64,000 nucleotides of DNA, from the NCBI GenBank assembly GCA_008690995.1, contig VRMN01000003.1:124001-188000 (forward strand), given 5' to 3'. The stretch is from Porphyridium purpureum (Eukaryota; Rhodophyta; Bangiophyceae; Porphyridiales; Porphyridiaceae). Made by a program: the position numbers and the translations under genes. Shown one piece after another: positions 6,262 through 56,664 of the stretch (the first letter of the stretch is position 1; every line of letters starts with the position of its first letter). The notes under the pieces are model-generated. The model worked only from the letters and a program-made list of their open reading frames with translations, searched no databases and was not told the DNA's origin.

Positions 6262-7929
6262 CTAAATGCCGAGATAGACAACGTTATTTTTTGAGCCATA
6301 CCCATCAGGTTCAGCATCCACGTCGACGTCATACCACCGATTCGACTGGTCCACAACAAATTTGTACGACAACTCGCCTGGCGGAAGCCCCATGCCCAGC
6401 GTCCACGCACCGTCGTCTGCATTCTGACGCATGGGGACCGGCTTCCACTCTGTGAAACTACCTACCAGCTGCACCGTCGAGGCCTTGGTCTTGTCCCAGC
6501 GAAACTCGTGAAATATCTTACCAACTGCGATGAGATTGTTCTGATTGAAACCAGAGGTGTACGGCAAGGTGACGTCAATGAACCAATTTCCGTCGACGAT
6601 AAATTTGACCTCGTATCTCCCCGGGGGCAGCGGAAGTTTCAAGCTGTGTACACTAGCGCCCTGCGCGGACTGCGCGCCGACGCCAGGCGACATTTTATGC
6701 TTCCCCTGCCAGCCGTCAAATGATCCTGTCAAAAGCACTTCGCGAGCGCTCGTTTTATCCCAGCAAAAGCTGGCCTCAAAGACACCCACGCGCAGCACGT
6801 TGTTCTCATTGCCGTAGGGATCGCGACGCCTCTCCTGCTTCGGGTCACATGTCCAGACGTCGTCGACAATAAACTTGCACGAATACACGCCCGGGCAGAG
6901 CACGAGATTTGCGCTCCAGACTCCAGGCGATGCTTCAATGAGCGGAATGCGCTGCGTCCACTTTGAAAATGAACCGACGATAAGCACAGATCTGTGCTTC
7001 TCGGGATCCAAAAAGGTCACGGGACACGAAATGGCAGCGTCTGGCGCTGCATTCGTACCATGCCTCGGTCGCGGCTTTGCGTCTGGACTAGGCACCGGCA
7101 GCGAAGCAGACAGGCGTTCGGATGCCGCGCGCAGATCGTCCTCCTTGCGCGCTTGTCGAGGCCCCGTGGAGTCGCTCGCACCACAGATGACATGAGAAGT
7201 CGGGTCCACAATCTCAATGATCCTTTTGCTGCGACAAGGTCGCGAGCGAGCGCGAGAGTTCAAGCTCCTGCGACCCCGACTGCTTGTGCTCCTCCCGCTT
7301 TCGCTGTTGCGCTCAGATACGTCGTCGGCAACGTCCTTGTTTGATGCTGCGTTTGCCGTGAGCCGATCGAGGATGGAATTTCTTCGAGCAGTCGTATCGG
7401 CTGCATCCTTTTCCAGAGCTGCGCGCGTCTCGACCACTTCCTTCGGCATGAAGTAGTAGCCGCGACTCTGGTTGCTCATGACATCCCAAGGAGCGAGCTG
7501 CTGGTGCGGCACGCTAGGCTGCAGCGGCTGCGGACACTGCGGCGCATCCGGGAACAAGGGATCCTCCGGCGTAATATCGGAAAAATCGGTCATCGACGAG
7601 TCCCTCGAGCTGAATGCCATTCCCGAACTGGGGCCGCCGTTCTTCAAGGATGAGCAAGCGGAGAGTTCCCGAGCCATACTCGAGCCCATCGGCCGCGGCA
7701 CGTTTGGCAGCGGGGGCTGGGACCGCGCTCCGTCTGCGCCGCTCACATCCCAGGACGCAAACGCACCGTCGAGAACCGAGCATGACCGCGAGTCGCCCAG
7801 TGTCATTGAGGGAACGGCGGCGTCCGCATCGCGCGGCGCGTCGAGGTGAGGCGACAGCAGCCTGGTCATCTCCGTGCACCCGGTCGAGCGCGTGCTTCTG
7901 ACGCTGTGGCTGCTACTTGATCGCTCCAT
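6262..7929 (-). CDS. Protein with three tandem CBM48/AMPK-type glycogen-binding domains
   Basis: A 555-residue protein. The N-terminal half (about 1-285) is disordered, rich in Ser, Arg and Pro. The C-terminal half carries three CBM48-like modules at about 290-375, 377-465 and 467-555. Each has the family signature: VLIVGSFSKW...YSCKFIVDDVW, VLLTGSFDGW...YEVKFIVDGNW and VQLVGSFTEW...YKFVVD, each followed by an N-N-V/L-I block. No catalytic domain is visible. In plants and algae such domains target starch-modifying enzymes to glucan; in AMPK beta subunits they sense glycogen. A scaffold or starch-surface adaptor role is inferred. The frame opens upstream only from a GTG, so the ATG at 7929 is taken as start. 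Confidence 0.85.
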   Translation of the reverse strand: MERSSSSHSVRSTRSTGCTEMTRLLSPHLDAPRDADAAVPSMTLGDSRSCSVLDGAFASWDVSGADGARSQPPLPNVPRPMGSSMARELSACSSLKNGGPSSGMAFSSRDSSMTDFSDITPEDPLFPDAPQCPQPLQPSVPHQQLAPWDVMSNQSRGYYFMPKEVVETRAALEKDAADTTARRNSILDRLTANAASNKDVADDVSERNSESGRSTSSRGRRSLNSRARSRPCRSKRIIEIVDPTSHVICGASDSTGPRQARKEDDLRAASERLSASLPVPSPDAKPRPRHGTNAAPDAAISCPVTFLDPEKHRSVLIVGSFSKWTQRIPLIEASPGVWSANLVLCPGVYSCKFIVDDVWTCDPKQERRRDPYGNENNVLRVGVFEASFCWDKTSAREVLLTGSFDGWQGKHKMSPGVGAQSAQGASVHSLKLPLPPGRYEVKFIVDGNWFIDVTLPYTSGFNQNNLIAVGKIFHEFRWDKTKASTVQLVGSFTEWKPVPMRQNADDGAWTLGMGLPPGELSYKFVVDQSNRWYDVDVDAEPDGYGSKNNVVYLGI

Positions 7930-18261: not shown

Positions 18262-19482
18262 TCACTCGCGTGTGCCAGTTCTTGCCTTCTTCGGCTCGGT
18301 GGCTGCATCTCCCGATTCTGACGATTCGCCGTGCATGTCAAGCGATCTGGAAGAACGTGCCTGTGGGCTCGCGACCGCTAACTGCAGCGATCGCTTCGGA
18401 GCACGCGCCGGCGAAAACGTTGAAACTGGCCTCACGGCATCGTGATGAAGATTCAGAGCCTGTGCACGTGGTTCCGCCAGGGATAAGTGCGAATGCAACG
18501 GCAACAAGTGCGGGTCCGTCACTGCTGTGTGCTGGGTTCTTGCTGATTTCTGCGACCGCTTTGGTGGCGGCAGAGTTTGCACCTCCGAAGACTGCATTCC
18601 AAACCGCTTTGGTTCAACGATCGCAAAGCGCGTCTCTGGCTGCACCGATGCAGGGTCTGTAGTCGCGTTTGAGGACAGCGGTACCTTTGCGGAAGAGGTC
18701 TCCGTAGCCCGCAGTGCTGCGGTTCTGGAGCCAATCACCAAGTGTCTGCGACCGCTTTTCCAGTCCCGCTTGCGAAAATTATGAAACCAGTTCCTCACTT
18801 GAGCAATCTCCAAACCCGTGTCCTGAGCCAGTTGGTGGCATTCCGGGTCTGACGGATACGGGTGGTCATCATGCGCGTCGGCCCATTCTCGAAGTAACGA
18901 CCTTGAGTCCGGGATGACGTTTCTTTTGGCCTCGTTCAACGTCTCTGCCTTCGAAAGCTTGGCGACCGCGGCATGAAAGCACTCACGTAGCATTCTGTCT
19001 TCGGCCGGGGAATACCACGTTGCATTGGGCACCATTTCTTGCACCAGCTCGAGCACGGTATCTTTGCACGCGTGCTCACATTGCGCAAGAATATCGTCCA
19101 GTCTTTGCTGGAAGACGTCCATTGTCTGGGGCGCAACTCCGGAGGACAGTTTTAGTCCTAAACCGTTGCCAGCCACAGTTGACGGTAAGACCTCTGGGTG
19201 CGCGTCTGCAATAGAATGATTCTCGAACCCCCTTTCCTCAGCACCCTGTCTCCTACCATTTCTACCAGCCCGGTCACCATCATCGATGACACTTCTAATC
19301 CTTTCCAACTCATTTGCATCCGAACCGACACGCGCTTGTGCGTCGTCCGCTGGACGAGGTTCACCATCCGATGCGTGCGCCATGGAAAGCTGCGTCAATG
19401 TGTCTGCGTCTCTCGCTGATCCTGGTGCTGAGGTGTGTCGCCCTCCGCAAACATCAGCCTGCGTCCTGCCACCCCGCTCCAT
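18262..19482 (-). CDS. TALE-class homeodomain transcription factor 1
   Basis: A 406-residue protein. The homeodomain (about 182-243) has the TALE-type three-residue insertion between helices 1 and 2, seen as HPYP at residues 207-210, and a recognition helix [14 protein letters not shown] with the invariant W, F, N and R. Residue 50 of the homeodomain is His, unlike the Ile usual in plant KNOX/BELL proteins. A helical segment before it (about 120-180, [20 protein letters not shown] through KLSKAET) may be a partner-binding domain. The rest is Ser/Arg-rich and low complexity. In green algae and plants TALE proteins act as heterodimers that switch on the diploid programme. The gene is transcribed away from a second TALE gene at 20101. 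The homeodomain is firm; KNOX versus PBX-like class is not settled. Confidence 0.88.
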
Positions 19483-20100
19483 TATGCTGGACTTGCTCGC
19501 CTGGCCTCACCGCGCCTCGTTTCTCGCGCTCACGTCGCTGCAGGTCACAACCTTTTCTTTTGAGACTAGGCTGACTCGCTCTATTAAAACAACATTGTTT
19601 TAGTATAAACATGAACTAGTCTCGATGTATGGAACGAGGCAGCTGGGGTCCAACGCTGACTGGGGTTGTTGCGTCGGGGCCAAGTGGCGCGCAGCCCTGA
19701 AAACGAAGCCGCCGCGCCGTGGCACTACTGGGTAGGGAGCGCGCCGCAAGAACCCAAACGTTTTGATGATTGAACATCTTGCTTTACTCCACACCGAACC
19801 AATAGCGGTCAGATCAGCAACAACACTCCTTGCCGGGCAAGCGAGTGTCTTGCGTCCAACCCTCGCCTACAACACTGTGCTTGTTATATTGCCTCGGGAC
19901 AGCACGTTCCTCGACCTCCACTCTACACTGCGCCCGGTCCACGCGCCCGCAGCAACCATCAGCCTCCGCCGAGTCCCGCAATAATGTTCGTAACGTGCTC
20001 GCCCACGTTACGTTATTCCAGCAGCCAAAGCAACCGAAAAGCCGACATCCTCGCGGCACTGTCGTGCGGCCTCGAGAGGAAGACGTGAGAACGGGGAGCG
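19483..20100. promoter_or_regulatory. Shared divergent promoter of the TALE gene pair
   Basis: A 618-bp region between the start codons of two oppositely transcribed homeobox genes. No other gene is seen. A TTATATT element lies near 19880 on the plus side. Sharing of regulatory elements is inferred from geometry only. Confidence 0.5.
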
Positions 20101-21648
20101 ATGTTTGACGTGGCCAAAGAAAGAGACGCGCACGCAGTGGCAATGATGTGCGAGCGGGCGCCTACCGCAGTGAGTGAGCGCGTCACGCATCGCGGCGATG
20201 AAATTAACGCGGGCTTCGATTCCTGTTTGCCAGATGAAGACGAGGCGTCGCAGCAGACGCAATGGCAGCTGAGAAGCCACACCGAGTACAAGCGTAGCAG
20301 GAGTGTTCGTCAGCATGAAAGTGCACATCAAGCCACCGCGAGGCACGCGCTCCCACGGTACCCCATGCTTCCTTACCAGTGCACGTATCAAGCCAACACG
20401 TCATGTGCCAACGCCTGGTTCTGGTATCCGACGCCGTCAGAGACATATGAGTACTCGCATACTCGTCATGACAATGAGCCTGCGCATCTGAAATATGCCT
20501 CTGGGCATCTGCGCGAGCTTGGAGTTTTGACACAACGTGGTGTCGGCTACCAGCCAGTGCCAGGCAAAAGAGCTCATGAAGCGCCACCGTGCCAGTCAGG
20601 TGGACTGCATCCTGGCCCAGGACGTTTCCAGTGCTCCAGCTTTCCTCACACTCCATACCTTAGGGGTTTTGCTTATGCTGCAGGACCGCAACTTGAGACG
20701 CGGCTCCCATTGTCGTTCGCGCGAAATGACGGAGCTGCTCACTTGGGTCATGGGACTCTAGAAGGCGCTTGTGAAGATCATGACATGCTCAATTCGCCTA
20801 TCATGCACTGCAACGACTCTCGTCACCAGCAATCTGTTTACATTCCAGGAGGCCCTAGTGTCAGAAATCTAGATGGCCCCAGGACGCACGGCGCCATGCA
20901 GCAGTTCGATTCGGCAAAAATAGACACAGCCACGGCGCTTCTTTTCGTCGCACAGCCTCAGTTTCTCGCAGACATGAAAGAGCTGGCGCACACAATGCAC
21001 GCTCCGTCACGTGGAGGCACGCGTGAAGTTGAAGGCAACAAGATCAGCGACAGTGCATTCAGCTTGGACTCTCCACTATCCAATGCCCGTGACATCCACG
21101 GGCGCACGAAAGAAAAGGAAATCCGAAAGGAAAACCCAGGGACTGCGAAGGCCTCCTCTCAAACTGTGATGCAAAAAATGGAGGAAATCCGCACCGTCTT
21201 TCAAGCCGCTATCATCGAGGAACTGCAAGAGCAGTCAAAATGTCGTATCATCTCACCGGGCGAGGAAAAAGAACGACTGCTTGCCGTTGCGGCGATTGCG
21301 CGCGCACATGCAGTGCGTGGAGAAAATGTTAGAAAAATGACCAAGGATAACATGTTCAGTCGCGGGTTCTTGGGCTTGGCATCCAAGCAAGGCTTTTCCA
21401 AGGAAGCGCACTTCGAACTCTTCAAAGCCTTTTTCGACATGATCTTACACCCGTACCCTTCCTCAAGCGAATTTAGAGACATTGCGGAACGCGCAAACCT
21501 CGAGTACGGGCAAACCGTACGCTGGTTCCAGAATATGCGCAAGCGTCTTTGGAAACCCGTTGTGCTTGCACTCCGAGGGCATGCCCCCGAACCGGATGTG
21601 ACCAAGTGGAGGCACGATATCTTCCGTCCTAAGAAAAAAAATGCCTGA
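20101..21648 (+). CDS. TALE-class homeodomain transcription factor 2
   Basis: A 515-residue protein. The homeodomain lies near the C terminus (about 425-484): helix 1 EAHFELFKAFFDMI, the TALE loop HPYPSSSEF, and recognition helix VRWFQNMRKRLWKP, with W475 as the invariant Trp. Homeodomain position 50 is Gln, not the Ile seen in most TALE proteins. Upstream, about 355-420 forms a charged helical segment (VMQKMEEIRTVFQAAIIEEL onwards) that could be a dimerisation region. The N-terminal about 330 residues are His/Ser/Pro/Gln-rich and look disordered. The C terminus RPKKKNA may be a nuclear localisation signal. It is not a copy of TALE 1: outside the homeodomain the two are dissimilar. Confidence 0.88.
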   Translation: MFDVAKERDAHAVAMMCERAPTAVSERVTHRGDEINAGFDSCLPDEDEASQQTQWQLRSHTEYKRSRSVRQHESAHQATARHALPRYPMLPYQCTYQANTSCANAWFWYPTPSETYEYSHTRHDNEPAHLKYASGHLRELGVLTQRGVGYQPVPGKRAHEAPPCQSGGLHPGPGRFQCSSFPHTPYLRGFAYAAGPQLETRLPLSFARNDGAAHLGHGTLEGACEDHDMLNSPIMHCNDSRHQQSVYIPGGPSVRNLDGPRTHGAMQQFDSAKIDTATALLFVAQPQFLADMKELAHTMHAPSRGGTREVEGNKISDSAFSLDSPLSNARDIHGRTKEKEIRKENPGTAKASSQTVMQKMEEIRTVFQAAIIEELQEQSKCRIISPGEEKERLLAVAAIARAHAVRGENVRKMTKDNMFSRGFLGLASKQGFSKEAHFELFKAFFDMILHPYPSSSEFRDIAERANLEYGQTVRWFQNMRKRLWKPVVLALRGHAPEPDVTKWRHDIFRPKKKNA

Positions 21649-24049
21649 AGTCTCTGCATGAAGAACGCCGACAGCAGCCGCACCTGTCACGCAGGCGATG
21701 GGTGCAAAAGCCATGGAGACAGAAGAGCTTCGGACACACAAAACAAGTGACAGACGCGGCATGGACAAACGACGCGCTAATTGAGAGAACGGCAGCGGCC
21801 TCTGGACCTGCACGGCCCATGGCCGCAGATGATACCTGTGCAACAGATGCTACCTTGGTTGGAGCAGACGTTGGAATTCCGATGGTGCATCGGCATGTGC
21901 AGTGATTGATTGGTTGATGATAAGGACCGGAGGAAAATGCCGTTACGCCTGCTAATCTCGGCCGTAACGATTATATACCAACATCCTGCGTCCATTCTTG
22001 GCAATGGCTTGCGACCGGGAAACGCTCGCATTCCTCAAGGCCTTGCAAAACGGCGTCCTTCGCAAACCAAGAACATCCCAGCATTTCTGGGCCCTTAATC
22101 AATCCCACGCTACCGGAAGCGAAGTGAAAATGCTGGACAAGGCTCCGTAAATGTCGACTCACGAAAGTAGAAATCAATACGATGAGGAGTCCAGAAGGAT
22201 GATAGTTGCATTCAATCTCCTCATCAAAACGTCTGACTCCGCAACGATGGCCATTTCTCAGCTTGGTCTCACGTAGCAACAGATAGGGAGCCGATGCTTT
22301 CTATGCCGGTTCACAAATGTACGGAGTGAGTTCAAGCACATCGTCAAGTAAATTAGTCACCGCCCCGCAATCATGTGCAATTTTGCCTTCCTTTCCGCGT
22401 CGACACAACCAATGGCCGTGCTCACACCTCCTGTAGGGAGCCAGATTTCCTTCCAAGTTGTTGTATACATTGGACTCGATCCTAAGGAGGCTCGCTTCCC
22501 ACTTCACCGTAAAGTCCGCTTGCAGAACGCGTGCTCAGAGCGACGTGTCCAGATCGGCTTCCGGACTCAGATTCTACGCAGTGCCACCACGCTTGCAAGC
22601 CATTGTGAAAGGCTGATGCGGTTCCTGGTTGCAAGATACACATAGTGCTCACAGAACTGTTCTCTGCACATCACGCAAGCCATCGATCTGATATTCCTGC
22701 CTCGCACCAGAGATGGGAATCTTGAACCGGACGCGCCTTTAGGCGCCGTCTGCGACGGCTCCTGTCCACGTGAAGAACGGGTATGAGGACACATTCTGCT
22801 TGCTTCTGGACAAACAGCAGACATCAGCTCTCGCAGAGGGTCGTGGGCCAGAGATCATCAGGGCTACAATACAGGTGTGCACGCGCTACGCTACTACACA
22901 CCGCTCGAGAAGACGCAACGAAGGTGGACGCGATCCAAGCAGCCAAGCTCGTGCGTCCTCTTTTAGCCTCCGGCGACAGCACAAAACCTCTCGCAAGTCA
23001 CCAACCTCAAGAATTCGGGAGGAGCGCATTGAGGTCCAGCTGCTCGTCCCGAAAGATCGCCTCGGCCTACATGCTCATGCTGTTCAAGTCAGACTTACGC
23101 GGGATCCAATATCAATAAACACAAGGGCTAGGATGTGCCGAACAAGCTGTTCATTGACTTCATTCTCAACGAAACTGCGCATCGCGTGACCTTCCTAACC
23201 TCCGCTGCTTTCTTTTGCCGTGCTCTTGCGCATGGCCACAGGATGTGTCAACCCAAAGCGAATCGAGGCAACATACGCTTTGGTGCGTTGGTATGATCCA
23301 TTCCCACCGCAGCTCTAGTCTCGAGGCAGCAGTCGTCCCTCTCAAGCCAGCCCAACCCAAATTCTCAGATCGGGTCATCGCATAAGGTGGACCGAAATAG
23401 AGGACGCACTTCCTCGCCGTGCTTTCGCCCAGTACGGTCGACGTAAATGGGGCCATCCGACTGAATATCACTTTCCATATCGGCCTGGGCAGCAGATTCA
23501 CTCATTCTACTGAAGCCTAGTCAACGGTCCGAAAGTTCTCAAGAGACGATTTTCTGAGTCACAGGACCCGCAGACCGTCGACCTTGCATCGCGCTGCGGT
23601 CTAAGCAAGCCTATGAAACGATGTGGGTTTCTGCCAAACAAAATTGGCGGTGCTCTCGATGGCGACCAGGTTAAAGTTTGATTTCAAAAGCTCATGAAGC
23701 GACCCGGAGCAAACACTACTGGTGCTAAAACTTGAGTCCCGTGAATGAATAATACCTCGGACCAGTCCGTGCAAGTACGATGCGCGCCCGGGGCGCGCAG
23801 GATGGATATTGAAAGTAAAGGCTTGCATTTCTCAGAACTGCTGCCCACAACAAATTTCCGCGCTTGTCGCTGATTGGAACCAAGTCCAAAAAACACCATG
23901 TACTTGGCATAGCTGCGTACCAAGATGCGATGCTCTCAAGGCCCAGTTTCCAACAGAACAGGAACAAGGGTAGAAGCCATACATTGTTTGCGAAAAACTG
24001 TTCTTCTCTTGAATTGCGAAAACGACGAGAGCGCACTAGGTCTTCAGAA
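21649..24049. other. 2.4-kb region without recognisable gene, beside the TALE pair
   Basis: The longest gene-free stretch in the window. Open frames are short (under 140 codons), overlap on both strands and show no domain, signal peptide or repeat. Base composition looks less G/C-rich than neighbouring coding regions. No tRNA cloverleaf, terminal inverted repeat or transposase remnant could be recognised. It may hold a long non-coding RNA, decayed sequence or simply long 3' flanks of the TALE 2 and BAG6-like genes. Confidence 0.5.
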
Positions 24050-30248: not shown

Positions 30249-32468
30249 TCAAAATCGAGTGACGTCGTTCAGGACAAGCGTCTCTTCCGCACCGACCTCG
30301 CAGAATCGATTTGGGCCCTTCTCCCAGTAGACCTCCCCATTCTTCGATACCACAACGTACTTGTACTCAAGATAAAAGTCGCCGGACGTCAGCTCAACTT
30401 CGAGCATTAACAAATCGTTCCGCTTGGCATGAGCAAATAGCGCGGGGGCATCGCGGGCGGACCATGTGCCGAGCTGCGGAATGTTTCCTACCATACGTAA
30501 TTCCGAACCATTCAAAATGAGGGATGGGTGCTGTAATTTGGTCTGGACCCGAAGGCCCGCCAACGACACGCCTGACTTTGCTGCAGTGTCGCTCAGACTC
30601 AAGCTCGTTGACTCTTCCGCCGTATCAGCGGCGACAGGTGACAAAGCAGCGGCAGTACGCGAGGACGAGGTGCGCGGGCCCGTCAAACTTTCGTAATAGC
30701 CAACTTTCTCGCGCACCGATTTCCGCGCTCTAATCCTGGCTTCTTCCTCCTGCTGCTCCTGCTTTTCAAGCATGCGCCTCTTCTCTTCTTCTCGTTCGGC
30801 AGTCAAGACACGGAGCATATTTTCCACGGTGTTTAACTGGCTGACCATTTGAGAAATCTCGCGCTCGGAAGGCGGCGCCATGAATGAGTCTCCGCCCGCA
30901 CTATGCCGATCGTCTTCAAGATCGTCCGCGACTCCGAGCCCTGATCCTCCTTCACCAGTCCCTACTAGTCTTGATGGAGATCGTTGCCTTTTGTCGTCAA
31001 CGAGCGCAGTCCCACGTCCGTTCGACGCCGTGGCGTTCGGGGCTCGACTCGACGACTGTGCCTCGCTTATTTGAGACGCTTCGCAGTCTGAATCATGCAC
31101 CGAGAAGTCCAAGAAGCCGGTCGCACTCCCATCTGGCAGTTTTGGCCTCGAGTCTCGATGCTCAGCCACTGCTGGATGCAGGGGGGCGCGGAAAAAGGTA
31201 ACGTACACGGTCTTGCTACTCTTAGATGGAGCAATTCGGCCATAATTGGCCTCGGAATCGCCCAGCTTGGTGACGCGCTCGGCTTCAAGGCCGAAAGACG
31301 CGATAAACGAAGACGGATTTGGGCACGCCCACTGAAAGTGTTGGGAAAGTTTCAAATCAACGGTCCGCTTGTCCTGAGCAACTAGGCCTCCGTCGCCAGT
31401 CTTGCACAAGTACGGGAGCGCCTCTACATTGAGCACATCGACCGTGGAATTGTAAATGTCTAGCAAGTGGTCAGATGCGCGCTCGTACTTGTCGATCAAA
31501 TAGTCGGCGATGGGTGGATACTTTGCAAAGGACGAAGGATAGTACTCATACGCAGCAAACAGGTCTTGCACGTAGTGGCAAGTCATCTCGATCATCGTTG
31601 CCGCGCGCTCGACTGCGGGAGGCACCATGGAGGGGCTGCTTCCGGGCTGTACGACGGCTGCTGAGGCCGTTGCTGACTTTTCGCGGGCAGACAGCTCCAG
31701 AACCATGCTTGCAATCATGCGACTGCCAGGGGCGCTCAAGTCGGCCACATTCTCGAGCAAGCGCACCACGGCTCCTTCAGGCAAGTAATATAAGAGGCCC
31801 TCCATGACCCACAAGGACGGGCGCGCGGGGTTGAATCCAGACAGAATGAGGCTACGCGCCCAGGAAGAGTGGCACAAGTCGCACGGGATGCGGATCACAG
31901 CTCGGCACCTGGGCAGTGGTGGCATACCTTGTGCGTACTCTTCACGTAAAACGCGAGTTTTCTCACGGATGATCTCTGGCAGGTCAAGCTCAAACACGAC
32001 TGCGTCGTGCAGCGAAGGCAACCGGAAAGCGCGCGCGTCCATGCCGGCACCGAGCATGACGACCTGACAGATGGCCGGATTCTCCCGCATCGCATGCACA
32101 ATCCACTCGTCGAAATACTTTGAACGAACGACGATTCGCGAGCCTGCCGCCTGCGAGGAAGCGTGCGAGCCCGGCGCCGTCGCGCTTTGCGCGAGCTCCA
32201 GCTGCCGCCTTTTCGCGCGCTGCAGCGCGGCCGGCCCGGCCAGCTTTTCGGCAAACTCATCATGCAACAGCGCATCCATGCGCTCGGACTCGAGCGCGCG
32301 CCACGACGCGACGAGCTTTGCCGACGACACGACCGCGTACCGCCGTTCACGTTCCCTGCGATGCCGCGCCTTCTGCACACCGCGCACCGCGTACTCAATA
32401 AGCACGTAGCCGCATAGTGCCGAGCAGCAGACGGCGGCTGCCACACCCGCGCCGCTCTGGATGCCCAT
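30249..32468 (-). CDS. PPM/leucine carboxyl methyltransferase-family enzyme fused to a CBM20 starch-binding domain
   Basis: A 739-residue protein with unusual architecture. The N terminus has one hydrophobic segment (about 5-28) and a basic stretch. A class I SAM-dependent methyltransferase follows (about 50-430): SAM motif VVMLGAGMDARAFRLPS at about 137-153, FELDLPEIIREK, and LWVMEGLLYYLP, typical of the leucine carboxyl methyltransferase/TIGR00027 group. Then comes a Ser-rich linker, a coiled coil (about 535-600, rich in EEEKRRMLEKQEQQEEE), and a C-terminal CBM20 domain (about 635-739) with MVGNIPQLGTWS, LEYKYVVV and EVYWEKGPNRF. CBM20 binds starch helices. The stop is 153 bp from that of purD (convergent). 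ATG at 32468 is used because the frame reaches further only to a TTG. The substrate is unknown; association with floridean starch granules is inferred. Confidence 0.85.
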   Translation of the reverse strand: MGIQSGAGVAAAVCCSALCGYVLIEYAVRGVQKARHRRERERRYAVVSSAKLVASWRALESERMDALLHDEFAEKLAGPAALQRAKRRQLELAQSATAPGSHASSQAAGSRIVVRSKYFDEWIVHAMRENPAICQVVMLGAGMDARAFRLPSLHDAVVFELDLPEIIREKTRVLREEYAQGMPPLPRCRAVIRIPCDLCHSSWARSLILSGFNPARPSLWVMEGLLYYLPEGAVVRLLENVADLSAPGSRMIASMVLELSAREKSATASAAVVQPGSSPSMVPPAVERAATMIEMTCHYVQDLFAAYEYYPSSFAKYPPIADYLIDKYERASDHLLDIYNSTVDVLNVEALPYLCKTGDGGLVAQDKRTVDLKLSQHFQWACPNPSSFIASFGLEAERVTKLGDSEANYGRIAPSKSSKTVYVTFFRAPLHPAVAEHRDSRPKLPDGSATGFLDFSVHDSDCEASQISEAQSSSRAPNATASNGRGTALVDDKRQRSPSRLVGTGEGGSGLGVADDLEDDRHSAGGDSFMAPPSEREISQMVSQLNTVENMLRVLTAEREEEKRRMLEKQEQQEEEARIRARKSVREKVGYYESLTGPRTSSSRTAAALSPVAADTAEESTSLSLSDTAAKSGVSLAGLRVQTKLQHPSLILNGSELRMVGNIPQLGTWSARDAPALFAHAKRNDLLMLEVELTSGDFYLEYKYVVVSKNGEVYWEKGPNRFCEVGAEETLVLNDVTRF

Positions 32469-44110: not shown

Positions 44111-45076
44111 ATGTGGCGGAATTCACCAATGCGACTCAAAGGATGGATCGATGCTGCGCGGAAAAGTTCATCGCTAGTAGCGGTGCCTTCCAATCCGCTT
44201 CGGTCGCCGGCGAGCTTCCATTGGCATCGGAGCGGGTTGCTGAGCTGGCGGAAAAGTTTGGATCATGGACATCGGGGGACAGATCAAAGTGCACGCGCGT
44301 GCTTCTCTGACTTTAAGAGTGAGGTACCAGATGGGGATCGCCAGCCGGAAATCGAGCTCTCTGATGCTGATTTGAAGCAGATCATCAATCGGTCAACGGT
44401 GATTCGACTTCGGCGGCACTTGGAACTGCAGGAAAGGCAAAGCATGAGCAAGGCAGAATTTCTAGAGCTATGCTCACACCATGGTTTGGAAGATGCCGCT
44501 GCGGAGCAGCTGCTGACTGATTTCGATGCAGCGGGCGTCGTGTTTCATATGCCCAGCGCAACGGCACAAGAGCTCAGGAATAGCGTTCTGCTTGAACCGG
44601 ACAAGTTGCTGCCCCCTGTGGCGCATGCATATGAATCCACTCTAGAAGAGCATGTGCGTGAAGAGCTGGTCCAACTGGAGGCCGAATTTGAACCATACCG
44701 GCAACCTCTAGCGCTCGTGCGGAGTAAGGCGAAGCAGCGAGCAAATGCAGTGCTGTGCGGAGGGTTAGCGGCGCTTGTAGGACAGACTGCATTGTATTAC
44801 CGTCTTACATTTGTGGACTTGTCATGGGAAGTGATCGAGCCGATTGCGTGGTTCACGGGTCAATGTGTCATGCTGGCCACGTACGTCTACTTTATTCGCA
44901 CAGGCCGGGAAAATTCGTACCAAGATATGTGGAGTCGCGTGTATAAGAAGCGATTCTCCAAGCTCGTTGTGCGCGGTGTCGACGGCTTAGATCTCTCACA
45001 TGGCCTTGCTCTCGAAACCAAAATAGCGAACTACAAGGAGTTCCTCGCAAAGTCTGTGGCGCTAACTTCACAATAG
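44111..45076 (+). CDS. Mitochondrial calcium uniporter (MCU) homologue with altered pore motif
   Basis: A 321-residue protein. An Arg/Ser/Lys-rich N terminus (MWRNSPMRLKGWIDAARKSS) fits mitochondrial import. A helical matrix-type domain follows, with coiled-coil character (LEEHVREELVQLEAEFEPY, about 178-197). Two membrane segments (about 211-233 and 245-264) flank the pore motif WEVIEPIAWF at residues 239-248, then YVYFIRTGRENSYQDMW. In well-studied MCUs the equivalent is WDIMEP, whose acidic residues form the calcium selectivity filter. Here Asp is replaced by Glu240 and Met by Ile242, while Glu243 and Pro244 are kept. Topology, spacing and the post-TM2 aromatic block support the family. Whether it conducts calcium is open. 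Confidence 0.82.
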   Translation: MWRNSPMRLKGWIDAARKSSSLVAVPSNPLRSPASFHWHRSGLLSWRKSLDHGHRGTDQSARACFSDFKSEVPDGDRQPEIELSDADLKQIINRSTVIRLRRHLELQERQSMSKAEFLELCSHHGLEDAAAEQLLTDFDAAGVVFHMPSATAQELRNSVLLEPDKLLPPVAHAYESTLEEHVREELVQLEAEFEPYRQPLALVRSKAKQRANAVLCGGLAALVGQTALYYRLTFVDLSWEVIEPIAWFTGQCVMLATYVYFIRTGRENSYQDMWSRVYKKRFSKLVVRGVDGLDLSHGLALETKIANYKEFLAKSVALTSQ

Positions 45077-45637: not shown

Positions 45638-46435
45638 TTAAAGCCTGGCAATAGCATCAATCATCACGAGAGCCTCCTTGGGAAGTGCGGCGACCTGGAA
45701 CGCAGTACGCGCCGGTTTAGGATATTGGCCTTCATGATAATTATTCAGAAACGCCCCATAGAGATCGTTGATCCTACCGAAATCGCGCATATCTTTCACC
45801 ATTAGAGTCATTCTTACAATACGCGGTGACACCGATCCTGAAGCCGAGTTCTTCAAGACTGCTTCCAAATTTGCAAGCGCACGAACTGCCTGTGTCTCGA
45901 TTCCGCCATCCACGAGCGTATCCGTCTTCGGGTCAAGTCCCAGACATCCACTCACAAACACATACTCGTCCTCCACAACTACAGCCTGACTGTACGGCCC
46001 CACTGCCTTGCCCGCGAGCTCAGTCTGCACACTTCGAAGGCACGGCTGCTTTGGCAACGCGCCCGACTGGTCCGCCGCACCGACGGCGGCCACGACTTGT
46101 ACCTCGACGAGCAACGTGGGTCGCACGAGCTTGGCCTCCACGGTAGCACGAACAGGTTTACACTCGGGATCGACCCATGCATTCCAAACAGCGTTCATCT
46201 CTGCCACTGTCGCGATATCTGCTAGCCACACACTGGCGCTAAGAATAGACGACTTGTGGCCGCCGCCCATTTCTAACAGCCTGTCGATCTTCGCAAGACA
46301 TGAGGAAGTCTGCTCTCCGACCGTGGTTTTCTGGTGCTCGTCGTCGGTCACCTGTCCGGCTAAATAGATTATTCCGCCGTGCACAACCATCTGGCTGAAC
46401 GAAGTACCCGGTTCGTATCGCACAATCGTTTCCAT
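45638..46435 (-). CDS. Protein with two fused RidA/YjgF domains
   Basis: A 265-residue protein made of two RidA-family domains. The first (about 1-125) contains YEPGTSFSQMVVHGGIIYLA, GQVTDDE and CKPVRATVEAKLVRPTLLVE. The second (about 135-265) contains VGPYSQAVVVEDEYVFVSGC, LGLDPKTDTL, and the signature PARTAFQVAALPKEALVMID with the Arg that contacts substrate in canonical RidA. RidA hydrolyses reactive enamine/imine intermediates of amino-acid metabolism to ketoacids. The first domain also has an Arg at the equivalent place (PVRATVEAKL). The ATG at 46435 has an ideal context (CGCCATGG). The same frame stays open for about 183 more codons upstream without recognisable content, so a longer N-terminal targeting extension cannot be excluded. 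Confidence 0.85.
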   Translation of the reverse strand: METIVRYEPGTSFSQMVVHGGIIYLAGQVTDDEHQKTTVGEQTSSCLAKIDRLLEMGGGHKSSILSASVWLADIATVAEMNAVWNAWVDPECKPVRATVEAKLVRPTLLVEVQVVAAVGAADQSGALPKQPCLRSVQTELAGKAVGPYSQAVVVEDEYVFVSGCLGLDPKTDTLVDGGIETQAVRALANLEAVLKNSASGSVSPRIVRMTLMVKDMRDFGRINDLYGAFLNNYHEGQYPKPARTAFQVAALPKEALVMIDAIARL

Positions 46436-47931
46436 GGCGATGAATTCCCCACCGCTACGCTCGACGGCGTCACCGAGCGACAGAAACTTCTCAAGCCACG
46501 AGGCTGCGTAAATGACACGGTTCCTGTTTTGATCTTGCTCACACTTGTGGCAACATTCGACAAGGGGTTGTCTGGGTGCTTTTTTTTGGCGTGCTTCCGT
46601 AAGGGAGATGATGCAAGAAATGCCGACCAGGATATCGACAGGCGCCCTGTGCATTCTGTGAAGCAAATTGGGATCGCCGGGTGCGCAGAGCTGGTTGTGC
46701 TGTGGAAATACTCTCGTAGAAGCGCGAAAGATCCCTCTGCTTGAGGCAGCCTCGTGTACGTTCGCGCAAATGCTCGAATGATGAAGGCAAGGTGTGGCTA
46801 GTATTTTCAAGTCCAAACGACCATTTGGAAGGTACGCAAAGTTTCGCCACGTACAAACACTCGTGGGAACACGGGCATGAACAAGGCTCTGTTCGCTTTC
46901 AATGCGAGCATGATGTAGATCAGACCCACTACGGCAAATGCACACGAGCGTGTCCTCACAATTTAGCACGGCAAGAAGGAACATGTTTCAGTCCTCGAAA
47001 AGACCATCGGTGTTTGGAAAGGCAGCTTTGTGCCCAATCTGCACAATATGCTTTGCTAGTGGCACATTGGAAAATGACAGACAACCAGGACCCCAAGCCC
47101 TGTGCGCGAAATGACGACCTTGTGGTGCAAAATCACGACGATGCTCGACTGCACATCATTGCTCGACACTTTCCAATCTCCTCGAAGAGCCGCTGATCGC
47201 ATGGAGTACCTGTGAAAGGTACCGTGGTCGTCCACATCTTTGAGAAGATGCACTGAATGAAACATACACGCAGCACAAAGGGGCTGATTGCCGACAAGAA
47301 GCGCTTGCGTGGGTATATAGCAATACTGTCAAGTCTGCTTTGCTCATGATGCTCGTCCACGTGCCGTGTAAGGAGCTCGGGAGTTCCTGTCGCAAACACG
47401 AAAGGTGCGCGTTGATGCGGTGCATTCCGGTCGAACCGCGGGACAATGCCACGGCGCAATCGCGATGCGCTGGCCGTGCACCGTTCGCTTGACCAGCTGC
47501 ATGCCTCCAGTGCCACAACCTTGCCCACTCGTCCGTTCAGCGACTAGCCCCTGGCCTGCAACATCGCGTCTGCCATCTTCGCTCCAGCTTCCCGCATTTC
47601 ATCATCACATGGTCATCATTGAAAATGTGAACGCTGGGTGTACAGCGTGGCCACCACAGAGCGTGAAGCCAAGGTTCAGTTTCATGTACACCCGGGAGTA
47701 CAGTCCATCATTGCGGGGGGAGGTACAGTCATCCGCGACGGCGGCGCTGCGAGTGGTTTTGTGTTTCATAGTAAAAGGTGTCTCTTTGTCAGAACTAGGG
47801 TCGAGGGTGTGCGTAGAGAAGAACCGAGGTGTGGCCGCTCATGTACGCATGTTTCAAGGCTTGGGTTTGGGCAACGGAGTCGAGGCGGAAAGGTAGAGGG
47901 GTTGGGAGGGCAAAAGTAGTTCTTGGGCAAG
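46436..47931. other. 1.5-kb divergent region between RidA gene and eL29
   Basis: Holds the promoter of the RidA gene on the left and of eL29 on the right. The coding-strand leader of eL29 (about 47880-47912) is purine-rich. Open frames in between have no recognised features; the 183-codon in-frame extension of RidA (to 46984) is the only one of note. Confidence 0.5.
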
Positions 47932-48586: not shown

Positions 48587-49507
48587 TCATTTCGTGACCT
48601 GCGTGATAACGATGGGAATTACGATCGCGCAGATAATCAGGATGACGCAGATCAGCAGGAGGATTTTCTTCTTACGCGCCGATAGCTGGTTTTTCCGTGC
48701 CTCGACAAGTTCCACCTCTGCAGACCTAGCTTCGTCCTTGGTTGCCTTCACGTTATACTCAATGTTGTTCAGGAGCTCGCCCTGGTTCTCCACTAGAATG
48801 CTTAGGTCCACGAACATCTGGTTCAGTTCAATGATTTGCTTTTCCAGCTCTTGGACGTCTCTGTTCCGTGATTCAATTTCCATGAGCCGCGTTTTCGTGG
48901 TCGCATGCGCACCACTGAGCTGCTGAGCGTTAATGAGATGACCGTACTCATTCGACTCGACTGCTTTTTCAATGTCGCGTTCCTTCATGTCGGGATTCAA
49001 GGCCTGGAGGTCCTGCACAATTAGCTTTTGGTTGTTCTTTTGCTCCCTTTCCTGTACCTTTTCAAAGTTTTGAACCGCGGCCATGAACTCCTTTGTCGTT
49101 GACTGGTGCGTGGTGACACGAATTCTGCCAACAGCCACGCTATTTGGATTTTGCTCTAAAAACGCCTTGTTCTCGGTGGCCAGCCTCTTGAGGCGCTTCC
49201 GGATCGCCTGCGCCTTTGCGTCCGTATTTGCGACGAGCGCCTTGATTTCGGCTTCCCGCTTGGGATTATCGTGCGCAATATCTTCGTAAATAAGCACAAG
49301 CTTGTCTGTGTTGACGTTGATACGGTTAATGGCCTGCGCAAGCGCGTCCATCTCACGGTAGAACTTCTTCAGCTCCTTGTTTTCTTCCTCGGACGCGCCT
49401 TCAACCGCGGCGCGCGACCCGCCGGCCTCTACGTCGCCCGCCGCCGGCGCGTCCCCCACGTCGATGTCATCATCCAGACCCGTCTTCAGATCCGCCAGCC
49501 GGTCCAT
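48587..49507 (-). CDS. Syntaxin, Qa-SNARE of the plasma-membrane (Sso1/syntaxin-1) type
   Basis: A 306-residue membrane-fusion protein. The order is an acidic N terminus (MDRLADLKTGLDDDIDVGD), an N-terminal three-helix Habc domain (about 48-170), a linker, the SNARE motif (about 210-270) with the zero-layer Gln in SILVENQGELLNNIEYNV, and a C-terminal tail anchor (KKKILLLICVILIICAIVIP then IVITQVTK). These are the standard parts of a Qa-SNARE that pairs with Qb, Qc and R-SNAREs to dock vesicles. The frame stays open upstream of ATG 49507 for 74 codons, but that part is unrelated to syntaxins and a Met-Asp start is typical. The family is secure; the exact compartment is inferred. Confidence 0.95.
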   Translation of the reverse strand: MDRLADLKTGLDDDIDVGDAPAAGDVEAGGSRAAVEGASEEENKELKKFYREMDALAQAINRINVNTDKLVLIYEDIAHDNPKREAEIKALVANTDAKAQAIRKRLKRLATENKAFLEQNPNSVAVGRIRVTTHQSTTKEFMAAVQNFEKVQEREQKNNQKLIVQDLQALNPDMKERDIEKAVESNEYGHLINAQQLSGAHATTKTRLMEIESRNRDVQELEKQIIELNQMFVDLSILVENQGELLNNIEYNVKATKDEARSAEVELVEARKNQLSARKKKILLLICVILIICAIVIPIVITQVTK

Positions 49508-49725
49508 CGTGTTCCGGACTCCACTCACGCCGTGCCTCGCCCTCACATCCGCAGCACGCACCTTTGCAACCTTGCTGGCTAAACACCTCCTTGCTAGCCT
49601 AATTGTCTTTTCTCCTCTTGTATCAAAACATCTCGTTTTAGTTATGGCGCTGTAACGGGTCAACATCACGCGCTCGCGCACACGCCATGGCAGTCGAGTT
49701 CGTGGCACCAGTGTTTCTCGCTGTC

Positions 49726-50667
49726 TCATTCCTCGTCCGACTCGCTGTCAGAGAAGTCGAGATCGCTGTCGTCGAAATCCGACCCGTTTTCTTCTGCATT
49801 GTCCAGCTCAAAGTCGAGCTCATCCTCAAATTTGGCTTCGAGCATCTCGAGGATAGACGACGTCCGCACCCGGAACGCCAGGTTGCCCGGAAATCGCGCG
49901 TATCTGCGAAGTAGATTGCCGTATCGCGCCACAAAACTGTCCCAGTCAAGACCAACAAAGTCGACTGGGATTTCGACGCACAGACTGCTGGGGTGCATGT
50001 CCGCGCCGAGCGAGCTTTCGAGTTCGCCGAGCAGCACATTGATGTCCACACACGAGGCGTTGGACAGAGCGGCACAGCTCAAGCCTTTGAATGAAAGCGT
50101 GCTCGACACCTGGACCCGCTCTACCAAATGCTTAACATCCTCCGAAGATTCCTTGGCGGCGCTGACAAAAACACGAAAGCCAGCCGCGCGCTTCTCCCGA
50201 TTCTGCGAGAACACCTTTTCGAGATCCTCAATGCACGTCATCGACGCAACCTTGCATACATCCTCAAGATTCGGTAACTGACGCAACTCACGCGTGTACT
50301 TCATAAACATTTTGTGCGTGCCTGAGTACCGCCAAATACTCAGCGGCAGCATGGTCGCCTTGTCCTGCAAGGCACGCGGATCGCTCTCTGCAAACTGCAC
50401 GACGCCTCGATCGGACATGACTTGCGCCGAGATCCACTCAACCCCAGAAACATCAAGCACAACAGCAAACTGCTTGACGAGCTTTTGGTCCAAGGATGTT
50501 TCGGAGCACAGCCGCTGAAGGTTCAAATGGACCTCGTCGGCCACAGCGTCTGCCGCCATCAACTCGCGGACCGAGAGCACGAGGTCCAAATCATCGATCT
50601 GTTTTTCTTCCCTTTTCTCCTCTCGCTTTCTTCCAAAGCCACTGAAAGAATCCGATTCAGCGCGCAT
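49726..50667 (-). CDS. Protein of unknown function with acidic C-terminal tail
   Basis: A 313-residue protein if the ATG at 50667 is used. The body (about 15-270) is alpha/beta: VLDVSGVEWISAQVMSDRGV, LPLSIWRYSGTHKMFMKYTR, and FVGLDWDSFVARYGNLLRRY. The last about 40 residues are almost wholly Asp, Glu and Ser, ending SDSESDEE, a likely CK2 target and typical of nucleolar, histone-binding or nuclear-transport proteins. No family is recognised. The frame continues 140 codons further upstream (to 51087), but that part is Arg/Ser/Gly-rich and looks like non-coding leader. Its stop lies 218 bp from the syntaxin start, so syntaxin's promoter must be short. Confidence 0.68.
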   Translation of the reverse strand: MRAESDSFSGFGRKREEKREEKQIDDLDLVLSVRELMAADAVADEVHLNLQRLCSETSLDQKLVKQFAVVLDVSGVEWISAQVMSDRGVVQFAESDPRALQDKATMLPLSIWRYSGTHKMFMKYTRELRQLPNLEDVCKVASMTCIEDLEKVFSQNREKRAAGFRVFVSAAKESSEDVKHLVERVQVSSTLSFKGLSCAALSNASCVDINVLLGELESSLGADMHPSSLCVEIPVDFVGLDWDSFVARYGNLLRRYARFPGNLAFRVRTSSILEMLEAKFEDELDFELDNAEENGSDFDDSDLDFSDSESDEE

Positions 50668-51169
50668 TCGAGTGCTCACCCGCGCCAGACTTCTCGAGCT
50701 ATTCGGGCCTGAGGAAGCTATGCAAATGGCTTTCTGTGTCAGCACCCACGCGCCCGGCACAAGACGCCTTGCTACCGAACGAACTTCCCTATTCCGCACC
50801 CGAAAGCCATCTCCATGCGTGCATAGCCCTAGTCCCAGCCCCGTCCGGCTTGGCTTGGATTTGTGTCTGTCGTCCTGCGTCTCCGTCCGGCCACTACAAC
50901 GACCGTGTTGATAACACTTATCTGCCCTTCGCCCACAGTGGTGCGTTCGGGTGCTTCCCCGACTCCCGCATGGACCAACAGACACCACAAAGGCCAGTGA
51001 GGCGTACTGCGCGAGCTGCGCGCCAGCCGATTGCGAAGCCAGGCTTTGTCTATGCGAGTCCATTCCGAGTCTCCGACTGCTCGTCATGTTTGCGATGACT
51101 CAAGAATGGCCACATCGATCTCCGGCACTCCAAAACCTTTTGGCCGCCGTGTGAAAGCGAACGACCAAC
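50668..51169. other. Divergent promoter region, acidic-tail protein and OPR-like gene
   Basis: A 502-bp spacer under the preferred starts. No TATA box or gene is recognised with confidence. Confidence 0.5.
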
Positions 51170-53634: not shown

Positions 53635-56600
53635 TCACGACCAATCAGAATCCTGCCAGTCAGGATACTTTGCCGGAAGAGACTGACGATTCTTAGCACC
53701 AGGACCTGTAGGCGTCGCTCCTCTTCCACCACCAAGCCTACCACGGTTTCCAACGCGTGGCTGCGAATCCAGTCCGGAGTGATCTAGATTTTCACCTCGC
53801 GAACTTGCGAATTCTTTGCTCGCATCTCCTCGTGAGAACCCTCTCATTTCCGAAGTCGGTGCTGATGCAGGTGGCGAGGGTCCAGCTTCATCCATCGTGT
53901 ATCCTTCTGACCATGCCGGTGCACGGGCTTTTCCACGCCTTTCCTCAGCACTCGCACCAACACGAGCAGGCTCCAATCGCGTGGTTGCCGGCACCGCGCC
54001 ACGTGGAGCTGCGGAAGCGCCGCTCGCAGGGGTCGGAGTATTCACATCTGCAGCACTGCCTGAGAGCCACGCAGGTAAAGGAGCCTTTCCACGTCTTTCT
54101 TCTGCACTTGCACCAGCACGGGCTGGCTCCAATCGCGTCGCCGCCGGAACCGCGCCACGTGGAGCTGCGGAAGCGCCGCTCGCAGGGGTCGGAGTATTCA
54201 CATCTGCAGCACTGCCTGAGAGCCACGCGGGTAAAGGAGCCTTTCCACGTCTTTCTTCTGCACTTGCACCAGCACGGGCTGGCTCCAATCGCGTGGCCGC
54301 CGGAACCGCGCCACGTAGGGCTGCGGAAGCGCCACTGGCACGGGTCGGAGTATTTACATCTGCAACATTGCCTGGTAGCCACGCAGGTAAAGGAGCCTTT
54401 CCACGCCTTTCTTCTGCGCTCGCACCAGCACGGGCTGGCTCCAATCGCGTGGCCGCCGGAACCGCGCCAAGTGGAGCTGCGGAAGCGCCGCTGGCAGGGG
54501 TCGGAGTATTCACATCTGCAGCATTGCCTGAGAGCCACGCAGGTAAAGGGGCCTTTCCACGCCTTTCTGCTGCACTCGCACCAGGACGGGCTGGTTCCAA
54601 TCGCGTGGCCGCCGGCACCGCGCCACGCGGAGCTGCGGAGAGGCCTCCGCTCTTCGTCGCTGACCCATCAAACAATACCTCGCGCAAGTTTCTATCTGGT
54701 GGGAATACCGATTGTGCTTGGGCTGTTGCGGTTACTTGCAGGGGATCTGGTCCAGAGAACGGTGCAACTTCTTCGTAAGGCCTGTCGTCGGCCCGCCCCA
54801 CACTGCCTCTCTTTCCAGGTGGAGCACCAGCGTCGACAGCCTCCGCCTCTTCCCGAGCCAAATGCCGCTTCCCACGTCTTTCTTCGGCGCTTCCACCAGC
54901 ACCTGCTAGCTCTCGAGAGCCAGCAATATTCACACGCTGGTCCACCACAGAACGGCTCCTTGCTTGTCCTATTATTGATGAGGACGGCTGATCTAATGGA
55001 CGCGTTGCTTCATGTGGGTCTGACACAGAAGAAGAAAGGGCGCGACCGGGAATCGCGGTAGCTGGTCGCTGTGGCCAGGTACCGGTGGCACGTTCTTGGG
55101 TTTCATTCTCCTGGACTATCCTTATCTGAGAGTTGCCACTCTGTGCCAGCGGCAACCTCTCGCTTTCTTCCCGACTTGCCCGCACGCGTGTTTGCGTGTC
55201 TCCGGGCGTTCCTAATCCGTCACGGTTAGAAATCAACTCGGATGGATGCGGGTTGTAGAAATTGGCATCGGCTACCGCACGAGGCCGCTTTGGGTAAACA
55301 GAATCTTGCACTTCTGCTGGTTCTCTTACGCTACGAAAAGGGCGACCAGGCAGCGACGATGCACTGGGCAGCGCACGACCTGGAAACCCCACTCCACTAC
55401 CAGATGTACCTTGCCATGATGGATCAGACCACCCGAACGGTCTTGCAGACAATGGTTCCGTACGAGGGAGTCCGTCTGAAAACCCATGACTATGATGTTC
55501 AGCCCATCCCGAAGGAGGCGCTGCTTCAGCAACAGGGGAGGCGCCTGCGCGTTCGGTGTAATGCCCCGGACCTGGATATTCAGCATGCGTGTGATCATAA
55601 GAATTGGGGGCCCAAGCCCTTGGAGCATCCCATTGCGCACCCTGATGGAAATCCTCGGGCACAGATTGACGCGCGGTGAAAGTGTCGGCACCACGCACCG
55701 AAGTATGCCCGAAATCACCTCTGGCCGAGTCAATGTACGCCTGCGCCTGTGGCGCTGGTTGCATGTAAGCCATGGTGTGCCCTGGCCTCGTGTCAGCGTG
55801 CAGTGCGTCTTGATCATATTCGTAATTCTGAACATGCACATGAACACGAGGGGAAGCTACTCGGTGCGGCGCTTCATGCGTTGGGAAAGGCTCCTGATCA
55901 TATTGCCTTTCAAAAGAACCGCTCCTAGGTATCACAGCGGTAGCTAGAGTATCTTCTGGTGACTGAAAATCAGGAGAAGGGTCTTCCATAACCACTTCCG
56001 TTGCCGATATCCTCGCCTCGACTGCAAATGTGTACGTGACCTGTGCTGTACCGAACTTCAGCACGTTTCCTGGATATAGCTCCACCTCTTCGTCCGTGCC
56101 GAGTATAAATTCATCTCCGCCTCGTGCGATACGTGTGATCTCGCCGTGGTCCGCCTGTTTAATCATGACTACCGGACGTGCTCCGTCAGGAAGAATGGTC
56201 CAGTAGCAGGCTGAATGAATATCCTTGACTGAAGGATGACCGACAAGTTCCCATTTGTCATGAAACGTCAAATCATCGTACGGCGACTCCAAGCCGAACA
56301 TCATCATGTATGGGTGGCTGCCAAACAACAGCAGCGACTTCTGGCCCGGCCTGTCTGGAATGGGGATGCGAGTTTTCTCCGACTCCTCATCCGGATCGCC
56401 AGGGCGCATTTTCCCGCGATCTCTCCAAAAGTATGCCTGGTACGCATGCGGTTGCGGCTGTGCGCGGCCCCAGATGTACTTTTTAAAAATGGTGGCGTTG
56501 GTATCTGTCTGGGCGTCCACGTCTGGCACATTTTCCAGTCGTCCGAAGAACTTGGCCAACTGCTTCAACTTGATCTCGCGCGCGCGCTGAAGCACCGCTT

Positions 56601-56664
56601 TCAGGTTCACTCGTTTCCCGCGTGGGTCCGGCAAAGTCTCTGTCTCGTTTCCATTTGATGTCAT
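53635..56664 (-). CDS. Large disordered protein with a five-fold 52-residue tandem repeat
   Basis: A 1009-residue protein. An N-terminal folded region (about 1-225) contains NLKAVLQRAREIKLKQLAKF, HPYMMMFGLESPYDDLTFHD and ILGTDEEVELYPGNVLKFGT; the last part recalls a beta-sandwich such as an FHA domain, but this is unproven. A long Pro/Ser/Gly/Tyr-rich linker follows. Residues about 675-920 are nearly five copies of a 52-residue unit with core GAVPAATRLEPARAGASAEE then RRGKAPLPAWLSG. A diverged single copy (GGSAEERRGKRHLA) lies N-terminal to the array. The C terminus is Gly/Arg-rich and ends YPDWQDSDWS. No family is recognised; a nuclear scaffold is possible. The start ATG is followed by a conserved-looking charged helix. 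Confidence 0.75.
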   Translation of the reverse strand: MTSNGNETETLPDPRGKRVNLKAVLQRAREIKLKQLAKFFGRLENVPDVDAQTDTNATIFKKYIWGRAQPQPHAYQAYFWRDRGKMRPGDPDEESEKTRIPIPDRPGQKSLLLFGSHPYMMMFGLESPYDDLTFHDKWELVGHPSVKDIHSACYWTILPDGARPVVMIKQADHGEITRIARGGDEFILGTDEEVELYPGNVLKFGTAQVTYTFAVEARISATEVVMEDPSPDFQSPEDTLATAVIPRSGSFERQYDQEPFPTHEAPHRVASPRVHVHVQNYEYDQDALHADTRPGHTMAYMQPAPQAQAYIDSARGDFGHTSVRGADTFTARQSVPEDFHQGAQWDAPRAWAPNSYDHTHAEYPGPGHYTERAGASPVAEAAPPSGWAEHHSHGFSDGLPRTEPLSARPFGWSDPSWQGTSGSGVGFPGRALPSASSLPGRPFRSVREPAEVQDSVYPKRPRAVADANFYNPHPSELISNRDGLGTPGDTQTRVRASREESERLPLAQSGNSQIRIVQENETQERATGTWPQRPATAIPGRALSSSVSDPHEATRPLDQPSSSIIGQARSRSVVDQRVNIAGSRELAGAGGSAEERRGKRHLAREEAEAVDAGAPPGKRGSVGRADDRPYEEVAPFSGPDPLQVTATAQAQSVFPPDRNLREVLFDGSATKSGGLSAAPRGAVPAATRLEPARPGASAAERRGKAPLPAWLSGNAADVNTPTPASGASAAPLGAVPAATRLEPARAGASAEERRGKAPLPAWLPGNVADVNTPTRASGASAALRGAVPAATRLEPARAGASAEERRGKAPLPAWLSGSAADVNTPTPASGASAAPRGAVPAATRLEPARAGASAEERRGKAPLPAWLSGSAADVNTPTPASGASAAPRGAVPATTRLEPARVGASAEERRGKARAPAWSEGYTMDEAGPSPPASAPTSEMRGFSRGDASKEFASSRGENLDHSGLDSQPRVGNRGRLGGGRGATPTGPGAKNRQSLPAKYPDWQDSDWS
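53900..54640. repeat. 156-bp minisatellite inside a coding region
   Basis: About 4.75 copies with landmarks GGAGCTGCGG near 54005, 54161, 54317, 54473 and 54629. The period is a multiple of three, so it encodes a 52-residue repeat and keeps alternative frames open on both strands. Confidence 0.9.

Follow-up and report, generated by a model that had tools for sequence, protein, structure and literature searches.

Do two dissimilar TALE homeobox genes that lie head to head in the red alga Porphyridium purpureum encode partners that govern its life cycle, or do they mark a sex locus? It has been proposed that entry into the diploid phase was ancestrally switched on by TALE heterodimers, and a preliminary description of the 64,000-nucleotide stretch of DNA that was analyzed (the window) had singled out the pair, here designated HD-A and HD-B, as a candidate sex or life-cycle locus.

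Layout of the gene pair and its surroundings

HD-A (406 aa; positions 18262..19482, minus strand) and HD-B (515 aa; 20101..21648, plus strand) were recognized as TALE homeobox genes from ORF calls, PDB matches, and matches to the Pfam family Homeobox_KN (E = 8.4e−12 for HD-A and 7.7e−6 for HD-B, both exceeding the Pfam curated cut-off). The two genes are transcribed divergently, head to head, from either side of a common intergenic region of 618 bp (19483..20100; GC content, 0.57). Both ORFs are intact, and each ATG is preceded by an in-frame stop. The layout first proposed for this locus, two intact divergent TALE ORFs with 618 bp between them, was therefore borne out at these coordinates. 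Because codon bias is weak in HD-A and HD-B, the support for both genes rests on homology and not on codon usage. Codon scores of HD-B residues 51-250 (20251-20850, plus strand) are neutral to slightly negative, with the frame open throughout, and may reflect a mis-set start or rapid evolution of the N-terminal half.

The P. purpureum genome has 9,898 genes (PMC6811547). Because two given genes would adjoin in only ~2/9,898 of cases, or ~2 in 10,000 (an estimate that assumes a genome of ~9,898 genes), the two TALE genes are unlikely to lie side by side by chance. Divergent transcription is commonplace within the window, where 6 of the 24 neighboring gene pairs are divergent, with a spacing of 82 to 974 bp.

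The pair is flanked on its low-coordinate side by a DEP-domain gene and a gene for a plastid-type GapA, and on the high-coordinate side of HD-B by a 2.4-kb stretch followed by a ubiquitin-like-domain gene. No other gap between neighboring called genes of the window is as long as that stretch (21649-24049), which has no repeat, tRNA, Rfam, or Pfam matches. The plastid-type GapA, the starch-binding modules, and the long ORFs free of introns agree with a red-algal source such as Porphyridium.

Several other ORFs of the window have features of their own. A single ORF at 30249-32468 (minus strand) joins a leucine carboxyl methyltransferase (LCM) domain to a C-terminal starch-binding CBM20 domain, a combination that seems unusual. 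Three consecutive AMPK-type glycogen-binding (CBM48-like) domains are encoded at 6262-7929 (minus strand), where no kinase or AMPK-beta C-terminal domain was found. A mitochondrial calcium uniporter (MCU) family protein is encoded at 44111-45076 (plus strand), and a protein with a long N-terminal extension followed by two RidA-type (Endoribonuclease L-PSP) domains at 45638-46984 (minus strand). The ORF of a syntaxin and the ORF upstream of it (48587-49729 and 49726-51087, minus strand) share 4 bases in the gene calls; the true syntaxin start probably lies further downstream. Finally, a 1009-aa ORF at 53635-56664 (minus strand) contains 4.6 copies of a 156-bp tandem repeat (53930-54639), and a frame on the strand opposite to it likewise stays open for 398 codons (53865-55061).

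Classes of the two TALE proteins

As the preliminary description had it, the PYP loop and the WF-N-R recognition helix are present in both homeodomains, the latter as WFHNFRKR in HD-A and WFQNMRKR in HD-B, so that residue 50 is His in the former and Gln in the latter. The dissimilarity claimed for the rest of the two proteins also held up: there is no detectable similarity outside the homeodomains, and the match between the two upstream regions was equaled by 666 of 1000 shuffles. Across both proteins, the Pfam models PBC, KNOX1, KNOX2, ELK, and MEIS and the NCBIfam models found no match. No relatives of either protein were found in viral contigs, and none of HD-B in prokaryote genomes. In a homeodomain tree, HD-A and HD-B formed long branches without useful support, and the tree was left out of the classification.

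The homeodomain of HD-B (aa 426-487; 21376..21561, plus strand; delimited by alignments) matches extradenticle, PKNOX1, and MEIS2 about equally well among PDB entries (~23 bits). It has the PYP loop, Q50, and K54, and A19, M23, and F31 in place of W19, H23, and K31. Divergent homeodomains without W19, H23, and K31 have been described for PBX-Red proteins (PMC6219170), and HD-B shows the same pattern. These proteins are the red-algal non-KNOX TALEs, defined by a segment that resembles the second half of the animal PBC-B domain (PBL) and is their predicted heterodimerization domain (Joo et al. 2018, PMC6219170).

We found such a PBC-B-like segment in HD-B, ahead of the homeodomain (aa 355-396, VFQAAIIEELQEQSKCRIISPGEEKERL; 21163..21288, plus strand); it aligns with the PBC-B domain of PBX1 and was supported by pairwise and profile tests. 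Of the reference sequences used here, PBX1, MEIS1, and KN1 were confirmed through their Pfam domains. The alignment of HD-B to PBX1 scored above all 1000 shuffles (z = 5.3). When compared to PBX1 PBC-B alone, HD-B ranked first of the 25 window proteins (z = 6.0; next protein, 2.4), and in the PBC-B profile comparison none of 40 shuffles equaled it (z = 7.2). SP and PYP are separated by 67 residues in HD-B, the same spacing as in PBX1. A plain HMM built from three PBC sequences gave HD-B only E = 0.21, yet placed it ahead of 2000 shuffles; the Pfam PBC model, as noted above, does not match it. With a three-residue loop extension and a PBL-like segment upstream of the homeodomain, HD-B appears from its sequence to be of the PBX-Red type, the segment being the hallmark of that class.

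The TALE homeodomain of HD-A (aa 186-244; 18751..18927, minus strand; delimited by alignments) is better conserved than that of HD-B and is MEIS/KNOX/BELL-like, with the PYP loop, W19, H23, C31, H50, and K54. Its best PDB matches are MEIS1/2 (~45 bits), and its identity is 46% to BEL1/ATH1, 42% to MEIS1 and KN1, and 36% to PBX1. Of a KNOX signature that was drawn from land-plant KNOX proteins only, HD-A keeps K54, while W20, W23c, K31, I45, N46, I50, and Q52 are absent. W19 and H23 were considered as a KNOX mark of HD-A and dropped, since these residues are common to BELL and MEIS proteins too. The region upstream of the homeodomain has no match to MEIS-B, PBC-B, or the land-plant probes for KN-B and ELK. 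Models made with AlphaFold without an alignment contain helices only (mean pLDDT of 52-54 for HD-A and HD-B), and a predicted helical region of HD-A (aa 118-182; 18937..19131, minus strand; single-sequence model, pLDDT ~52) is a candidate dimerization region. As far as its sequence goes, HD-A is a TALE protein of unassigned class.

A KNOX identity for HD-A would nevertheless be favored by elimination, because the red algae examined all have KNOX-Red1 and most have one non-KNOX gene (Joo et al., PMC6219170), although the residues disagree. On balance, we consider the chances that HD-A belongs to the KNOX group to be about even. The other possibility is that both genes are non-KNOX, that each protein is paired with a KNOX protein encoded elsewhere, and that their adjacency is due to an old local duplication or to shared regulation. 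This would agree with the lack in HD-A of W20, W23c, I45, N46, I50, and Q52 and of a KN-B or ELK detectable with land-plant references, with a homeodomain as near to BELL (46%) as to KN1 and MEIS1 (42%), and with the gene set of Pyropia, in which a single KNOX gene is accompanied by two of BELL type (PMC6685973, PMC12906010). However, most red algae have a single non-KNOX gene, and the PBL that is said to be in all red-algal non-KNOX TALEs (PMC6219170) was not detected in HD-A. Moreover, any duplication must be ancient, given that HD-A and HD-B have no similarity beyond the homeodomain. We regard this reading as a real possibility, though less likely than not.

Proposed expression and function of the pair

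The 618-bp region common to the two genes suggests that HD-A and HD-B are co-expressed. It has no excess of TGAC sites and no inverted repeats. A single TGATTGA at 19767..19773 (plus strand), similar to a PBX half-site, was found where 0.05 were expected from mononucleotide shuffles; this pattern was one of 12 tried and was picked post hoc, so we treat it as a weak lead and do not count it as evidence.

We tentatively propose that HD-A and HD-B are linked, co-expressed TALE partners whose heterodimers control the haploid-to-diploid programme, a reading to which we give somewhat less than an even chance. Transcribed from one region, the two genes would probably be expressed together, and their products would most likely be partners in one TALE network. 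Through helical segments that precede the homeodomains, the proteins would make contact, bind DNA as heterodimers, and thereby control the programme. Red-algal heterodimers have been predicted between KNOX and PBL domains (PMC6219170). Against such a partnership, HD-A may not be of the class complementary to HD-B, because its sequence has few KNOX signature residues and no KN-B, ELK, MEIS-B, or PBC-B match. If HD-A is not a KNOX protein, HD-B would pair with a KNOX protein from elsewhere, since no binding between two non-KNOX proteins was seen in tests with three prasinophytes (PMC6219170). The most likely role of the pair, in our view, is that of co-regulated life-cycle factors, of which at least HD-B would act via heterodimers.

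The pair could instead regulate a non-sexual matter, such as a stress response or the cell wall, with a sexual function absent or lost. TALE factors of plants and animals serve diverse purposes besides the life cycle, and the pair could be a further instance. We nonetheless consider this improbable, as both ORFs are intact and without decay, and the algal functional data presented in PMC13353863, PMC6219170, and PMC12906010 concern life-cycle transitions. The preliminary description had likened the pair to the unlike homeodomain proteins that start the diploid programme in other lineages. What stands of this likeness is the presence of two unlike head-to-head TALE genes in a lineage that, judging from PMC6219170 and the studies cited in PMC13353863, probably has such regulators; control of the programme by this pair is the tentative part.

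Comparison with mating loci and other TALE systems

The fungal parallel drawn in the preliminary description holds in part. The HD1/HD2 loci of basidiomycetes also contain a divergent pair of homeodomain genes with a short common upstream region (PMC8305134), and HD-A and HD-B are likewise divergently transcribed. In contrast, HD1 is a TALE protein and HD2 has a classical 60-residue homeodomain (PMC8305134), whereas HD-A and HD-B are both TALE, and their spacing is typical of the window. In a locus of the fungal type, each haplotype would carry the two genes, as alleles that have diverged; HD-A and HD-B are seen in one haplotype.

These similarities raise the question of whether the pair is a sex or mating-compatibility locus, with alleles that differ by mating type and with only non-self combinations giving an active heterodimer, as in fungal HD loci. 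Homeobox genes are associated with sex in other red algae: Gracilaria has a conserved male-specific homeobox gene (PMC12502185), and the sex-determining regions of Bostrychia contain TALE genes (cited in PMC13353863). Bostrychia moritziana therefore resembles P. purpureum in having an unlike TALE pair, but one gene is on the female and the other on the male sex-determining region (Petroll et al. 2025, in PMC13353863), while HD-A and HD-B share a haplotype. No repeats, degenerate genes, or extra domains were found around the pair, and a scan of 21.6-24.1 kb for signs of a sex-determining region found no genes, repeats, tRNA, or Rfam matches. Together with the ordinary divergent spacing and the TALE identity of both proteins, these observations make a mating-compatibility locus quite unlikely. 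Less likely still is that this unicellular, supposedly asexual red alga uses the pair as a compatibility locus, with strain-variable alleles of which only non-self heterodimers would start the diploid programme; such a layout, with two TALE partners, would have arisen independently of fungi. The 2013 Porphyridium genome paper is said to have reported evidence of sexual reproduction.

Co-expression of life-cycle partners from the 618-bp region would fit a one-genome system of the Galdieria type better than a system with one partner per gamete type. Galdieria is likewise a unicellular red alga with KNOX and BELL-related genes in one haploid genome (Hirooka et al. 2022, in PMC13353863). The function of its TALE genes was shown by deletion, whereas HD-A and HD-B are known from their sequences; linkage of the Galdieria genes is unstated in the account of PMC13353863. 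The closest counterpart of HD-B is in the KNOX-Red/PBX-Red network (Joo et al. 2018, PMC6219170), which also consists of TALE genes of unlike sequence and has the PBL segment together with a divergent homeodomain. HD-A differs from that network in having no KN-B or ELK detectable with land-plant probes. Head-to-head linkage, which is present in the P. purpureum pair, has no mention in the main text of PMC6219170, and we found no report of a similar TALE layout in the literature searched. The new part is the linkage of the TALE pair, its components being ordinary. If HD-A and HD-B are partners, they offer one small target for testing for a hidden sexual cycle in a unicellular mesophilic red alga, and they would be an example, outside the fungi, of homeodomain partners that are linked.
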